A stretch of DNA of 41,668 nt from a virus. The stretch covers positions 1-41,668 of the IMG/VR virus record IMGVR_UViG_3300042198_000072. One strand, written 5' to 3'. The notes under the pieces were generated by a model, which did not search any database, was not told where the DNA came from, and was given only the letters and a program-made list of their open reading frames with translations. This document shows positions 28,800 through 41,668 of the stretch, in pieces. The position numbers and the translations under genes are program-made. How positions within the stretch are numbered: the first letter of the stretch is position 1; each line of letters opens with the position of its first letter.

Positions 28800-29519
28800 T
28801 CACCCCTTTTCTTCGATCTTAACTGGCTTAATCCGATTCGTGACCGCTCTCAGCGAACCACCAAATCGAGCCTGTAGCTCGTCGTGGCATTGATCGACCC
28901 TTCGCTTCTCATCTGGCGATAAGTCCCAAAACGACCTTTCCATCATCCCGACTGGCTGGGGTTGTTCCGTTCCGCTGATCCGCCACTTCGGTCCCCACTC
29001 CCTTACTACGGTGTCGAGTACCTCCCTGCTCATCCCCCCTTCCTGACAGCAACACCGAACCGAATGGACTCGACGTAGTGCGTTGTCCGGGAAGTTGTGC
29101 GACCTCCAGACCCACTCCACGACTCGCACGCGATTGCCTGTCCCAGGGTCGAGCATCGTCCAATAGGGGGCCGATCCGATAAACACACCGCACGCCCCCG
29201 TATCGCGGCAGTAGACACATTGGTAGGCTGCTTCGCCGTGCTTGGCGAATTCCCGCCGGACTGACGCCTTGGTGTCGATGTCGCGGGCGATCCGCCAGAC
29301 CTCGACCACATGCCGTTCGGCCCTAGGGGTCGTTTCCATCATCAGGATCTGATCGGTAGCCGCCTTCGCCGCCTCCAGCGTCAGACCGCCGATCATGCCC
29401 GTAATCCGGTCGGCCGTTACCGCCGCCTCGGCGTCCGACTGTTCGTCCAGAAATCGTTTCCACGACCCGAACGTCGCCTTGTGGTACACGATCCACTCTG
29501 TTAGCTCGGTGCTTGTCAT
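28800..29519 (-). CDS. Zinc-cluster protein after the initiator (helicase-loader candidate)
   Basis: The predicted protein has 239 residues. The N-terminal 70 residues are helical (SWKRFLDEQSDAEAAVTADR), followed by Cys clusters CVYCRDTGACGVF and VRCCCQEGG that probably bind zinc. The gene overlaps the O-like initiator by ATGA and precedes the resolvase, the usual position of a helicase loader. No Walker ATPase motif is seen, so a lambda P-like non-ATPase loader or another replication accessory is the most that can be said. Confidence 0.55.
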   Translation of the reverse strand: MTSTELTEWIVYHKATFGSWKRFLDEQSDAEAAVTADRITGMIGGLTLEAAKAATDQILMMETTPRAERHVVEVWRIARDIDTKASVRREFAKHGEAAYQCVYCRDTGACGVFIGSAPYWTMLDPGTGNRVRVVEWVWRSHNFPDNALRRVHSVRCCCQEGGMSREVLDTVVREWGPKWRISGTEQPQPVGMMERSFWDLSPDEKRRVDQCHDELQARFGGSLRAVTNRIKPVKIEEKG

Positions 29520-30616
29520 CGTCTCCCCCTCAGCGCTTCAATGACGGTCGTCGGCTTGGTCGGCGCCGCCACCCCCTTGTCGTGATACTTCCTCTCCAAG
29601 ACCGCCAGCCAGTTGTCGTCCCGCAGGAGCCAGTCGAGGCTCGCCCGAAACGGGGGAGATCCGGCCTTGCCCGGCACCCGGCCGCACAAAAACCCGCTCT
29701 CGGGGATCATGGCGATGATCTCCCTCCACCGACGGGCGAACTGATCCGACCGGAGACACTCGCGCAGCTTGTGGAGCCTTCCCCCGAGAATCTCGACCGA
29801 CTCGTTCAAGCCGGCTTTGGCCGCGATCGCGTTCCACTCCGCGACGATCTGGTCTTTCACGATGAAGGGATTCCGGCTGGGGTCGACCGCTTCGTTTGTC
29901 GACTGCGGAAGATGCGAGAGCTTGCTGGCGACATCGTCGGGATTGTCCCCGAAAACGTCTTTCATGCTCCTTTGGAATTCATTGGTGAGGGGAGGGGGAC
30001 TTTCCTCCTCCTTCCCTGGTAGGGTTCTATTGGTAGAGTTCATTGGTAGAGTTAGGGTCTCAGCGTGAGACCCCTCCCGTCTCAGCGTGAGACCCCTACC
30101 CGTCTCAGCGTGAGACCCCTCCCGTCTCAGCGTGAGACCCCTACCCGTCTCAGCGTGAGACCCCTCCCGTCTCAGCGTGAGACCCCTAGATTCGCTTTGT
30201 GGTCTCACCATGAGACCTATAGACGTCTCACCATGAGACCCCTCAGTAGTGGTCTCATCATGAGACCTCACCCCCTTTTCTTTGGCCTTGGATCGATTCA
30301 GGTTCCGAAGCCGTCGGGCGTCGAGCTGGTAGAGATTCGACGACGGTTTCCCAGCTTCGTTTGTCCGCCGCTGGTAGCTCACGACGCCGATCTCCCGCAG
30401 ACGTCCGATCGAGCGATGAATTGAGGCGCGCGAGCAACAGCAAAACGTTTGCATCCTCGCCCAACTCGGGAACGACTGGCCCCGACCGTCGGCATGGGCC
30501 GCCAAGCAGATCAGGACCAGCTTTTCGGTCGGACTCAATCTCAACTCACCATCCCCGACCACGCCCTGGGCCAGTGCGCACCATTGCCAGCCGGTCATCT
30601 CCTGTTGCCGATCCAT
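29516..30616 (-). CDS. O-like replication initiator with internal iterons
   Basis: The predicted protein has 366 residues. Residues 25-90 form a winged-helix domain (LSPTEKLVLICLAAHADGRG, then SFPSWARMQTFCCCSRASIH and IGRLREIGVVSYQRR). The middle (about residues 115-190) is a repetitive linker coded by the iterons and reads as a 15-residue repeat with GLTLRREGSHAETGR. The C-terminal third is helical and may contact the loader or helicase. As in lambda O, the origin appears to sit inside the initiator gene. It lies downstream of recT and is ATGA-coupled to the next gene. Confidence 0.78.
   Translation of the reverse strand: MDRQQEMTGWQWCALAQGVVGDGELRLSPTEKLVLICLAAHADGRGQSFPSWARMQTFCCCSRASIHRSIGRLREIGVVSYQRRTNEAGKPSSNLYQLDARRLRNLNRSKAKEKGVRSHDETTTEGSHGETSIGLMVRPQSESRGLTLRREGSHAETGRGLTLRREGSHAETGRGLTLRREGSHAETLTLPMNSTNRTLPGKEEESPPPLTNEFQRSMKDVFGDNPDDVASKLSHLPQSTNEAVDPSRNPFIVKDQIVAEWNAIAAKAGLNESVEILGGRLHKLRECLRSDQFARRWREIIAMIPESGFLCGRVPGKAGSPPFRASLDWLLRDDNWLAVLERKYHDKGVAAPTKPTTVIEALRGRR
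30057..30266. repeat. Nine iterons, putative replication origin
   Basis: Nine 15-base palindromes: six identical GTCTCA-GCG-TGAGAC at 30057, 30079, 30102, 30124, 30147 and 30169, and three variants with CCA or TCA centres at 30202, 30225 and 30252. The six are spaced 22/23 bases apart, two helical turns, so an initiator could bind all on one face. They lie within the gene for the O-like initiator. Confidence 0.82.
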
Positions 30617-30632
30617 GACGTCCGCACCTTCC

Positions 30633-31610
30633 CTAGTTGGTCCGCTCGATCATCCGCTCCAATGCCGCCGGCTGGTCGGCCGTCGGCAGTTGACAAAGCT
30701 GGTCGTACTCGCTCTTGTCGATCACGCCGGCCGTCATGGCCTTGAGAACCTGTAGATGAGGCTTGTTTGGTGGGGCGTCCGCGTCGAGAATCTCCCCCTC
30801 GACGGAGACCGACTCAACAGGAGCGGACTCGGGCAACAGAGAATCCGTCAGAACGTCGAGACTCGACCGCCCGCCGGCCGCCTCGATTACGACCGATCTC
30901 GGCTTCCCCAGGTCGAGCTCTTCGCGCTCATCGATCGCGACCGCTTGCCGGAGATCATCCGAACAAGGAAGAGTCTTGCAAAGCCGACGGATGACCGTCT
31001 TTTTGGCCATCGCGACGTAATGATTCACCCAGGGAGACCCCGGCTTGCTCCCCGCCTTCGACATCGACCGAATCCGATCGACGTCCTTTTTGCTCATCAC
31101 GTCAAATTGTGTCACCCCACCAGCGAGCCAGGCGATAGCGTAGACATGGGTCAACGATGCCGGGATCTCGTCTCCCGCCGGCTTGTGCTTGACGTAGGGA
31201 TTAGTCCCGTAGTCGAAATCGAATTCGTCACCCCCGAAGACCGCCCGAGATTCGACTTTGAGGATCGAGCCCGACCGCCGAACCAGCTCCAAAAATCCCT
31301 GATATCCGATCACCAGTTGGCACTCGAACGTTCCGGCCTGACTGTTTCGAAACGGGATCAAGTAGGCATGGCCCAAGTGGTTATTGGGAGACAAACCCAG
31401 CTTGGTGCATTCGATCAGCGAACCGACCAGGCTCGCTTGGGTACACTCCAACAGCTTGGGGGTCTCCCGGATCGCCATCGCGCACAATTCCAGCGCTCGC
31501 TCGACCGGAATATGCCGAGGCAGAAGCCGAGCCATTGGCTCCCGATACGGTTCCAGAAGCTTGGCGACCGTTGCCGCCCGATCTGACCCTTTAACGACTT
31601 GCGTCCCCAT
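30633..31610 (-). CDS. recT: RecT-family single-strand annealing protein
   Basis: The predicted protein has 325 residues from ATG 31610 (TAATG with the exonuclease stop); a longer frame to 31742 lies inside the exonuclease gene and is discarded. RecT core motifs are visible: LCAMAIRETPKLLECTQASL, LGLSPNNHLGHAYLIPF, CQLVIGYQGFLELVRRSG, then SPWVNHYVAMAKKTVIRRL and CKTLP. It anneals ssDNA produced by the paired YqaJ exonuclease, for recombination and replication restart. The C-terminal 80 residues are acidic and less conserved, as usual. Confidence 0.92.
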   Translation of the reverse strand: MGTQVVKGSDRAATVAKLLEPYREPMARLLPRHIPVERALELCAMAIRETPKLLECTQASLVGSLIECTKLGLSPNNHLGHAYLIPFRNSQAGTFECQLVIGYQGFLELVRRSGSILKVESRAVFGGDEFDFDYGTNPYVKHKPAGDEIPASLTHVYAIAWLAGGVTQFDVMSKKDVDRIRSMSKAGSKPGSPWVNHYVAMAKKTVIRRLCKTLPCSDDLRQAVAIDEREELDLGKPRSVVIEAAGGRSSLDVLTDSLLPESAPVESVSVEGEILDADAPPNKPHLQVLKAMTAGVIDKSEYDQLCQLPTADQPAALERMIERTN

Positions 31611-32506
31611 TATTTCACCCCTTTTCGTCTGAGAACTCGGTACTTGCTCGCTTTGGCGACGTACTCGCCCCGCTCTTGCGTTTTCCAGCTCCAAACCGTC
31701 CCGTCGGGAAGCTTTCCGTAGGTTGCCCCCGCCAATCGGCACTGGATTTCCGCTTGAAGATCCTTCTTTTTCTTTTCCAGCTCCGAGAGGGTCGCCTGGA
31801 CGCTGACCAGCTCCGCGTCGATCGCCAGAACCTCGGGACCGAGATCGATCACCGCCCCGGAATCGTCCGGGTGAAGGCGTTCCAGAGCCTCGGCCAGGTC
31901 GACCGAGGGCCTTTCCTTCGGCGGGGTCTTCGACTCGACGGCGAGCCAGAACTCCAGCTCTCGCATGAGCAAAACCGAGAGAAATCGAGGATTGGGCTCG
32001 ACCGCGAACTCCCGGTAATCACTCCCCCCGATCAGGACCGCGACGACTCCCCAGGAGTAGCCCGTTACCATGAGTTGATGTTGGACCTGGGCTTGGACAT
32101 GTAGGGGGGGCTCGACATCCCAGGCCGACGCCATCCGCTCAGACGTCGTCTTCACTTCGAGGACACCGGGAGTCCCGTCCTGCTCGATCCTCCTGTCCAA
32201 TGTCGCGAATAGGAACGGATACTCGCCGTGCCGCTGAATCGCGTACTTCCCAGGGTTGGACGTCTTAATCTCGGGATGCCGAGCCCGGTACTCCGCCGCG
32301 ACGACCGCCTCCAGCTTCTGGCCGAAAGCCATCTGCCGGGTCATCTTCTGGGTCGGCTCGATCAAGCCGGTCTTGATTCCCCATAGTTCGGTCGGACCCA
32401 TCCAAGGGGAGACCCCGAGGACCGCCGGCGCATCGCTCGCCCCGATCCCATCCTGACGTTTCGCCAGCCACCGATCGCGACTGGTCGGTTTTGCTGCGTT
32501 ACTCAT
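31610..32506 (-). CDS. YqaJ/lambda-type exonuclease
   Basis: The predicted protein has 298 residues. Motifs: GIGASDAPAVLGVSPW (N-terminal), 'LFATLDRRIEQDGTPGVLEV' then KTT (catalytic Asp plus E-x-K), and QAQVQHQLMVTG (conserved Gln helix). The C-terminal third is a coiled-coil extension (VQATLSELEKKKKDLQAEIQ). It degrades 5' strands to feed RecT. ATG 32506 overlaps the CsrA-like stop as ATGA, so the two are translationally coupled. Confidence 0.9.
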   Translation of the reverse strand: MSNAAKPTSRDRWLAKRQDGIGASDAPAVLGVSPWMGPTELWGIKTGLIEPTQKMTRQMAFGQKLEAVVAAEYRARHPEIKTSNPGKYAIQRHGEYPFLFATLDRRIEQDGTPGVLEVKTTSERMASAWDVEPPLHVQAQVQHQLMVTGYSWGVVAVLIGGSDYREFAVEPNPRFLSVLLMRELEFWLAVESKTPPKERPSVDLAEALERLHPDDSGAVIDLGPEVLAIDAELVSVQATLSELEKKKKDLQAEIQCRLAGATYGKLPDGTVWSWKTQERGEYVAKASKYRVLRRKGVK

Positions 32507-34166: not shown

Positions 34167-34367
34167 ATGGGGATTCTGCTGGCTCTGTTTGCTCCGCCGA
34201 TCTCTCTGTTTGCAAGTGGTCGTCCGGGCTCGGCTCTTCTGTGTCTGGTCCTCCAGCTTACGCTGATCGGCTGGATTCCGGCCGCGATCTGGGCCGTCGT
34301 CGCTCGCTCGGAGTCGATCGCCGACAAGCGGGCCGACCGGATCATCTCGTCCAGCCGCCGGACGTAG
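34167..34367 (+). CDS. YqaE/Pmp3-like small membrane protein
   Basis: The predicted protein has 66 residues from ATG 34167, behind GAAAGGG; an ORF start at TTG 34149 is less likely. Two hydrophobic segments (residues 2-13, ILLALFAPPISL; residues 25-46, SALLCLVLQLTLIGWIPA) with the family's PP and GWIPA motifs match YqaE/Pmp3 proteolipids, which affect membrane potential. The C-terminus is charged and extended. It has its own promoter, on the opposite strand from most genes, beside attP, so it resembles a lysogenic conversion (moron) gene. Confidence 0.75.
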   Translation: MGILLALFAPPISLFASGRPGSALLCLVLQLTLIGWIPAAIWAVVARSESIADKRADRIISSSRRT

Positions 34368-34635
34368 ATCATGCTGGACAAATGCTGGACGTTTTTGATC
34401 GCGGATGACCAAAGAACAATAGAGCCGTCCAGCCCGTTTTCTCATTTCAGCCAGTGTTTTCGATGAAAACGAATACTCAGCCGTGATCGACCTTTAGATT
34501 CAGGTTCTGGTGGGGTAACACCCGTGAAGGTTCGAGTCCTTTCTTCGGCAATGATTACGGGATAAGGCTTTATGGAAAACCAGGGGAGGGAAGATCGGGT
34601 TATCGGCGATCAATTCCGCTGGACGCATGCTGGAC
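34349..34635. promoter_or_regulatory. Six GCTGGAC sites around attP (candidate integrase arm sites)
   Basis: GCTGGAC or its complement occurs at 34349, 34373, 34384, 34427, 34618 and 34629. Two pairs (34373/34384 and 34618/34629) are spaced exactly 11 bases and flank the tRNA-Leu core on both sides. This is the layout of integrase arm-type sites in lambda-like attP regions. Confidence 0.65.
34494..34550 (+). other. attP core: 3' half of tRNA-Leu(CAG)
   Basis: The sequence has the 3' half of a tRNA-Leu: anticodon stem, loop TTCAGGT with anticodon CAG (34501-34503), stem TCTGG, a GGGTAACACCC variable arm, a T arm with GGTTCGAGTCC, and an acceptor end CTTCGGCA (to 34550) without CCA. No matching 5' half (GCCGAAG) or D arm lies upstream, so this is not a functional tRNA gene. 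It is the expected attP core for a phage that integrates into the host tRNA-Leu gene and restores its 3' end. Confidence 0.85.
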
Positions 34636-34650
34636 GACCGGGCCAGCGAA

Positions 34651-34716
34651 GCGCGGGGAATGCGCGGAGAAAGCGCGGAGAAAGCGCGGAGAAAGCGCGG
34701 AGAAAGCGCGGGGAAA
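34651..34716 (+). repeat. Six 11-base tandem repeats just before the integrase start
   Basis: Six copies of GCGCGG(A/G)GAA(A/T) run without interruption; the middle four are identical. The last ends two bases before the GTG at 34718. Because 11 is not a multiple of three, gain or loss of one copy changes the reading frame of any upstream start. Confidence 0.9.
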
Positions 34717-34717
34717 C

Positions 34718-35887
34718 GTGAGGAGCATCCACCGCGACCCGAGAACGGGGAAGTTTTTTACCCGGTTCCGATTCGCCGGCCGGCGGGTGATGATCTCCTA
34801 CGGTACCGACCAGAAAAAACGGGCCGAAGAGATCCACCGCCGGGCCATGTCGAAGCTTTGGGAGCTGGAGAACGGGATCACCACCATTCCCCCAGGTCAG
34901 GAGATCGCCGACTGGCTCCTGGGCCGATCCCCGTCGCCGACCCGGACCCTTGAAGACTCGATCCAAGCTTATCGGGATGCGAGAGCCGAGGGGACGCATG
35001 CCGTATCGACGGTCAAGACCGAAGACCTCCATCTAGGACACTTAGGACGGATTCTGGGGTCAGCCCCCGTCCAGTCGATCGCGCCCAGACACTTGGCCGA
35101 GTATCGGGACCGCCGGCTGGCCCAGGTCTCGGGAGCCACGGTAAGAAAAGAGATCTCGACGTTTCGGGTTCTTTGGAGATGGGTCGTCGGGCAGTCGATC
35201 GCCCAGGGGTCCGATCCATCCGCCGGCCTGGCCATCCCCAAGCCTCCCAGGGCCGAGCCCTTCCGCACCTTGGCCGACGTCGAAAGGATGACCGAGGGAC
35301 TCGACGACACCCAGGCCCAAGCCTACTGGGACTCCTGCGTCTTGGTTGCGGGAGAATTGTCGGAGTTGCTCGCCGTCGTCGACCATCGGGCTCCCCATTG
35401 GATCAAGGGAGCGATCTACGCATGCGCTCTCGCTGGGGTCCGGCGGTCCGAATGGATCAGATCCCGACCCGAAGACTGGGACATCGGACGGGGGACGCTG
35501 ATCGTCCGCGAGAGAAAACGGGTCAAGTCTCGACAGGGGTCCACCCGAACCGTCGCGATCCATCCGACCCTAGACCGGGTCATTCGCGAGCATCTGACCA
35601 AGCACCCTGGCGGGTCCGTCATGTTCGGTCTCGATCCGTCAAAACGGATCACCCGCGACCAGGCCGTCCACTATTGGCGGGAGATGTTCCGAGGGTCTCG
35701 CTTCGAGAGGCTTCGAGGCTATCACGTTTTGCGTCATTCGTTCGCCTCAAACCTGGCCGCCGCCGGGGTCCGGGCCGACCTGATCGATCGCTGGATGGGA
35801 CACCAGACCCAAGAGATGCGAGAACGCTACCGACACTTCTTCCCCCAAGAGGAAACAGAGTCGATAGCGCGGCTTGATGTCCGATAG
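34718..35887 (+). CDS. int: Tyrosine recombinase (integrase)
   Basis: The predicted protein has 389 residues from GTG 34718; the upstream tandem repeat supplies a GGGG-type ribosome binding site. The N-terminal 65 residues are a basic arm-binding-type domain (SIHRDPRTGKFFTRFRFAGR). A SAM-like core-binding domain follows (about 75-170). Catalytic residues: R242 (GVRRSEW), H336 and R339 in HVLRHSF, H362 (WMGHQ) and the nucleophile Y371 (RERYRHF). It catalyses integration at the adjacent attP. It is read on the plus strand, opposite to nearly all other genes. Confidence 0.93.
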   Translation: MRSIHRDPRTGKFFTRFRFAGRRVMISYGTDQKKRAEEIHRRAMSKLWELENGITTIPPGQEIADWLLGRSPSPTRTLEDSIQAYRDARAEGTHAVSTVKTEDLHLGHLGRILGSAPVQSIAPRHLAEYRDRRLAQVSGATVRKEISTFRVLWRWVVGQSIAQGSDPSAGLAIPKPPRAEPFRTLADVERMTEGLDDTQAQAYWDSCVLVAGELSELLAVVDHRAPHWIKGAIYACALAGVRRSEWIRSRPEDWDIGRGTLIVRERKRVKSRQGSTRTVAIHPTLDRVIREHLTKHPGGSVMFGLDPSKRITRDQAVHYWREMFRGSRFERLRGYHVLRHSFASNLAAAGVRADLIDRWMGHQTQEMRERYRHFFPQEETESIARLDVR

Positions 35888-36614: not shown

Positions 36615-36824
36615 GTGAAGACTCAGACTGAACCAGTTCGACGCGGGCGCCCAGCGATCAGCCCCGAGCAAAGGAAGACAATCACGCCGACGTTCCGGGT
36701 CAACTCTGACGAGCTGTCCGAAATAGTCCTGGCCAGCCATTTGGCTGGCCAGGGGTTGTCGACATGGATCAGGGAGACGCTACTCCGGGCCGCCCGGCGG
36801 GCAAACCGAGCCCCGAGGGAATAG
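36615..36824 (+). CDS. Ribbon-helix-helix DNA-binding protein
   Basis: The predicted protein has 69 residues from GTG 36615, behind GGGAGGGAGAGA. It has a basic start (RRGRPAISPEQRKT), then the strand TPTFRVNSDELSEI, and helices LASHLAGQGLSTWIRETLLRAARR, the pattern of Arc/MetJ and relaxosome-type RHH proteins. It is one of the few plus-strand genes and faces the leftward small genes, so it may be part of the lysis/lysogeny switch. Its 3' end overlaps the convergent HTH gene by 45 bases. Confidence 0.75.
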   Translation: MKTQTEPVRRGRPAISPEQRKTITPTFRVNSDELSEIVLASHLAGQGLSTWIRETLLRAARRANRAPRE

Positions 36825-37079
36825 GAGCATCAGCCGCCGGACTTCGGCATCGGGGATCGTCCGCCGGCCATCCACTTTGACCGAGTCAATCTTCCCCCGC
36901 TGGATGCGACACCAAAGGGTAGCCGTACTGACGCCGAGCTTTCGGGCCGCGTCTTGGATCGTCCAGTTCTTTTCGGGAAGCGGGAGACGGCCGTCGATCT
37001 GATCCCGAAGCCGGTTGACCTCATGGATCAAAGCGTCTACCTTTTGAATCAGCGGGTCCAGAGAAAGGCTATTGCTCAT
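36780..37079 (-). CDS. HTH_17 / excisionase-like DNA-binding protein
   Basis: The predicted protein has 99 residues. A helical N-terminus (DPLIQKVDALIHEVNRLRDQ) is followed by the MerR/excisionase-type motif NWTIQDAARKLGVSTATLW, then RIQRGKIDSVKVDGRRTI. The wing and helix order match small Xis-like proteins. It could be the excisionase partner of the integrase. It overlaps the upstream gene start by 11 bases. Confidence 0.78.
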   Translation of the reverse strand: MSNSLSLDPLIQKVDALIHEVNRLRDQIDGRLPLPEKNWTIQDAARKLGVSTATLWCRIQRGKIDSVKVDGRRTIPDAEVRRLMLLFPRGSVCPPGGPE

Positions 37080-41329: not shown

Positions 41330-41668
41330 CAGTCCCCCGAGACAATCGGCAGGTCAGGAGGATTCGGAGATGATCCGCACCCGCACCCGTTGTAGCTCGG
41401 CATCTTGCCCGTCAAATCGGTCGGCATTGTCAGGCTTACCGCCTCCCAGCGGGGAGGATCATCAGGGCATTTTTCGGCTGGGAAGAGGGCTTTCAGCGGA
41501 AGGTAGCATCCGCATAGGCCGCACCGCGAACCCTTGACATGCTCGCACGCTCGACAGGTCGCCCGGCGGGCTTGGTAGGCATTCCAGGGGACGATACGAC
41601 CGCCCCGCCAGAGGTAGCGACCGACCGCCAGGGCCAGGGAGAGGATCATCGCCGCAAGCGTCAGCCGC
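41329..41668 (-). CDS. Cys-rich membrane-anchored protein, 3' part (starts at 333 across the junction)
   Basis: This is the C-terminal part of the 181-residue protein that starts at 333. It reads in frame to the window end; 41542-41668 duplicates 1-127. It contains the end of the hydrophobic helix (ILSLALAVGRYLW), then YQARRATCRACEHVKGSRCG and LCGCYLPLK with a final EKCPDDPPRW. The C..C, C..CGC, CP..RW pattern resembles a small zinc-ribbon family (DUF6171-like). As a linear ORF it would appear to start at 41649, but that is an artefact of the cut. Confidence 0.7.
   Translation of the reverse strand, partial: RLTLAAMILSLALAVGRYLWRGGRIVPWNAYQARRATCRACEHVKGSRCGLCGCYLPLKALFPAEKCPDDPPRWEAVSLTMPTDLTGKMPSYNGCGCGSSPNPPDLPIVSGD
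41542..41668. repeat. Terminal direct repeat, right copy
   Basis: Identical to 1-127. See the left copy: it indicates a circular map with the duplicated stretch counted once. Confidence 0.93.

Follow-up and report, generated by a model that had tools for sequence, protein, structure and literature searches.

Integration of tyrosine integrase elements at the anticodon loop of tRNA genes is a recognized class of tDNA site (Williams 2002, as cited in PMC4383910), and the corresponding anticodon subsite of tDNA islands is subsite A of Islander (PMC4383910). Use of this subsite is consistent with the 7-bp overlap logic of lambda-type attachment sites (PMC8371274). In the open literature, no paper devoted to tRNA-targeting integrases of planctomycetes was found. 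The locus described here lies within a phage record of 41,668 nucleotides, analyzed whole and referred to below as the window. Positions 34494-34550 of its plus strand constitute, with a probability that we put at about 95%, the core of a temperate-phage attP for tRNA-Leu(CAG), with the strand exchange and the host that are set out below.

The window has identical 127-base ends (1-127 and 41542-41668), which suggests a circular assembly; this overlap equals a common assembler word size and need not reflect a real terminal repeat. Since the record closes on itself, the attachment site is internal and unoccupied. Profile matches to terminase, portal, Mu F-like head protein and tape measure genes mark the virus as a tailed phage. 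A replication initiator is encoded at 29516-30616, and adjoining genes for a RecT-like annealing protein and a RecE/YqaJ exonuclease lie next to it on the minus strand (30633-32506). A candidate excisionase is found at 36780-37079, also on the minus strand (HTH_17; phrog_66, excisionase and regulator).

The 34494-34550 segment matches the 3' part of a tRNA-Leu(CAG), from the anticodon arm to the discriminator base, lacking the 5' half. The anticodon stem (34494-34498 with 34506-34510, TTAGA/TCTGG) contains two G-U pairs and encloses the loop TTCAGGT (34499-34505; anticodon CAG at 34501-34503), which would be the center of the strand-exchange region. There follow a 15-nt variable arm with a stem of its own (34511-34525), a feature of class II tRNAs; a T arm, GAAGG-TTCGAGT-CCTTT, with the loop TTCGAGT (34526-34542); the acceptor 3' strand CTTCGGC (34543-34549); and the discriminator A at 34550, the CCA end not being encoded. 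ARAGORN calls no complete tRNA anywhere in the 41,668 nt and Rfam reports no RNA family above threshold in the window, and the segment is therefore a half gene, as the preliminary description had proposed; the phage nowhere supplies a 5' half, the 5' flank being unrelated sequence. A structural pattern of the half tRNA, specifying the 5-bp anticodon stem with U33, the variable-arm stem and the 5-bp T stem, has a single match on both strands of the window and none in 60 mononucleotide shuffles. The start that had been assigned, 34494, is correct to the base as tRNA anatomy; however, candidate host genes have CCAGA in place of the phage TTAGA, and so the sequence common to phage and host probably begins at 34496.

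The adjoining gene (34718-35887, plus strand) encodes a 389-residue tyrosine integrase with a GTG start (PF00589, 1.6e-16; phrog_1, 3.4e-42). An alignment to 1aih matches its HxxR, GH and Tyr motifs to those of the HP1 integrase, and the gene is intact. The earlier count of 168 bases from the half tRNA to the integrase, from 34550 to the GTG at 34718, is accurate. Between attP and the integrase start, 34649-34713 consists of about five tandem copies of the 11-base unit GCGCGGAGAAA. Short repeats flank the core on both sides. GCTGGAC occurs 13 times on the two strands of the phage, of which six fall in a 421-bp stretch around the core (binomial P 1.7e-9), and all three copies of ATGCTGGAC and both copies of TGCTGGACG in the phage are located around the site. 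Direct tandem copies with 11-bp spacing are found on the plus strand in the left arm (ATGCTGGACAA-ATGCTGGACG, 34371-34391) and in the right arm (CGCTGGACGC-ATGCTGGACG, 34617-34636), and the repeat search gave two inverted copies of GCTGGACG on the minus strand (34348-34355 and 34426-34433). This layout has the look of arm-type integrase sites, to which the integrase would bind.

The host site was sought with a 52-base core pattern in the IMG/VR contigs and in 84,980 GTDB species genomes, and the exact core was present in none of either. A loosened pattern gave no match in IMG/VR and 11 loci in the genomes. All 11 are intact tRNA-Leu(CAG) genes, from which the identity of the phage half is clear. 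The nearest gene, in JAIELF010000046.1, is identical to the phage core at 51 of 55 bases, and its four differences compensate each other in pairs, one pair in the variable arm (G-C to A-T) and the other in the T stem (A-T to G-C). The genome carrying it (JAIELF01) is probably that of an uncultured planctomycete. In the interval 172-1561 of locus L008, on this contig, a distant integrase of 415 residues (27% identity) precedes the intact tRNA-Leu(CAG); it stops some 60 bases short of the tRNA 5' end, an unusual side for an integrator into the 3' half. Joining host 5' halves to the phage 3' half in silico yields an ARAGORN call of tRNA-Leu(CAG) at four of four host loci; with the 5' half from JAIELF01 every position of the acceptor stem is paired, and no tRNA is called in the phage site by itself. 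With the paired positions of the core left open, a search of 398 genomes from the class of JAIELF01 finds similar tRNA-Leu(CAG) genes in two genomes only, both members of the same three-genome order as JAIELF01; 294 genomes of the phylum contain no core with three or fewer mismatches. Relatives of the phage terminase reach 48% identity in that class, and the three-genome order itself contains none. No lysogen of this phage with attL and attR was found in IMG/VR or in the 84,980 genomes. The expectation that the host attB could now be located is thus realized in part: a closely similar tRNA-Leu(CAG) gene is in hand, but neither an exact match nor a gene flanked by the prophage, the check that had been proposed, was obtained. 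The most likely host appears to be an uncultured member of the Planctomycetota, a host group that has been sampled sparsely.

The integrase points to the same phylum. Close relatives are absent from IMG/VR, and relatives are encoded in 10 of 392 Planctomycetota genomes (E <= 1e-40), in 80 of 398 from the class to which JAIELF01 belongs (E <= 1e-45, at most 41% identity) and in none of 198 from another phylum (E <= 1e-30). Intact tRNA genes precede the integrase in the same orientation at 45 of the 82 loci examined; the gap to the integrase match is 118-463 bp, with a median of 186. A genome of 6-7 Mb has an estimated 60 or so tRNA genes, so that chance neighbors would be expected at well under 1% of loci. 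The neighbors are predominantly tRNA-Leu (27, with anticodons CAG 9, GAG 8, CAA 5, TAG 3 and TAA 2), followed by Ser and Gln (6 each), Asn (3), Lys (2) and His (1). No intact upstream tRNA was seen at the other 37 loci, five of which are cut by a contig end; three of the 37 have a differently arranged tRNA-Leu, some show a 3' part only, and none has a tmRNA beside it. At L197, L190 and L185 a Leu-like 3' part alone lies 165-193 bp upstream of the integrase, the layout of the window attP inside bacterial contigs. One integrase subgroup (L107, L109) faces the tRNA-Leu 3' end from the opposite direction, its integrase ending 140-146 bp away and hence inverted relative to the usual layout.

Target labels on the integrase tree require 45 changes, compared with 50.7 when shuffled and a minimum of 13. 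Since the relatives swap targets so often, among Leu, Ser, Gln, Asn, Lys and His, kinship of the integrase alone would not predict Leu(CAG); moreover the window integrase is on a long branch (2.19), and the targets of its relatives are by themselves no proof of tRNA-Leu(CAG). A tentative picture, to which we give slightly less than even odds, is that the phage is an outlier of a large Planctomycetota integrase family in which the geometry has stayed constant, with the tRNA 3' end some 120-250 bp before the integrase gene, and the targets have moved repeatedly, mainly among Leu isoacceptors; an altered anticodon-loop overlap may suffice for a change of target.

Four members of this integrase family are found in 49-57 kb elements integrated in planctomycete tRNA-Leu genes (G155, G366, G580 and G447; loci L111-L116, L199-L201 and L205-L207). 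Each shows an intact tRNA-Leu and a displaced 3' copy: TAG with the copy 50 kb away in G155, TAG at 57 kb with a 55-nt exact repeat in G366, CAA at 50 kb in G580, and TAA at 49 kb in G447. In all four the displaced copy begins within the anticodon stem and takes in everything 3' of it, the portion of the tRNA that the phage also carries. Around the break, attL and attR agree only over tRNA positions 29-46 in G155 and 31-46 in G580, and in these two elements the variable arm differs between the two 3' halves, which would place the crossover in the common block around the anticodon loop; as read from the junctions, both elements have swapped the host 3' half for their own. The large ORFs sampled from three of the elements belong to kinase, helicase and DNA methyltransferase families and include no match to phage structural proteins, and the four thus look like genomic islands. 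Integrase aside, none of the 14 phage genes tested has a detectable counterpart in the four.

Taken together, members of the integrase family use five Leu anticodons (CAG, GAG, CAA, TAG and TAA), which raises the question of whether the core also serves at other tRNA-Leu isoacceptor genes, the anticodon arm alone being recognized. This seems improbable, because the displaced copy and the intact gene agree in their anticodon in every resolved element, and because a 7-bp overlap that includes CAG would be mismatched at the other genes. It is somewhat less probable still that the half tRNA is what remains of an old attR, or a host fragment captured by chance, with the true attP elsewhere. The lack of any observed lysogen would fit such an origin, as would those relatives, L197, L190 and L185 among them, that likewise have only a tRNA 3' part beside the integrase; but the distance of 168 bp agrees with the attL geometry of the relatives (median 186 bp), the arm repeats flank exactly the 34494-34550 site, and the stems are intact with changes compensated relative to the nearest host gene, which favors continued selection on the half tRNA. 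The perfect T-arm and acceptor features of the 3' half might be taken for part of a split, permuted or phage-encoded functional tRNA for lytic growth, a very remote prospect given an acceptor strand that has no partner and a phage with neither a 5' half nor a whole tRNA to provide one.

The attP reading of the preliminary description is accordingly upheld by a half tRNA next to an intact integrase, by the flanking arm repeats, by restoration of the tRNA in silico and by the four integrated relatives. In the proposed mechanism the tyrosine integrase, assigned by family and motifs, would bind the arm repeats on both sides of the core, and strands would be exchanged inside the anticodon arm between attP and the host tRNA-Leu(CAG), as suggested by the sequence and by the four integrated relatives. 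Integration would join the host 5' half to the phage 3' half and so make the tRNA gene whole, with the integrase just downstream of the restored gene, and the original 3' half of the host would be carried to the far end of the prophage. An attachment site, an integrase orientation and a probable host phylum are in this way fixed for a complete metagenomic phage that came with no host, together with a concrete and checkable attB sequence, AGATTCAGGTTCTGGTGGGGTAACACCCGTGAAGGTTCGAGTCCTTTCTTCGGCA. The integrase-attP pair could also be tried for site-specific insertion in planctomycetes.

Compared with the described systems, the locus shares with the anticodon-loop tDNA class an attP bearing a 3' tDNA fragment that starts in the anticodon arm, an adjoining integrase, a gene that integration would restore, and integrated relatives that consist of an intact gene and a displaced 3' fragment. 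With the four planctomycete elements it has in common the integrase family (29-37% identity), the geometry and the break in tRNA-Leu; it differs in that their targets are TAG, CAA and TAA isoacceptors whereas the phage half is CAG. The proposed mechanism does not differ from that of the anticodon-loop class, and what is new is the 5' flank of the phage core, the arm sites and the integrase sequence. It is ordinary tDNA-targeted integration, a known phage strategy, here in a little-studied lineage.
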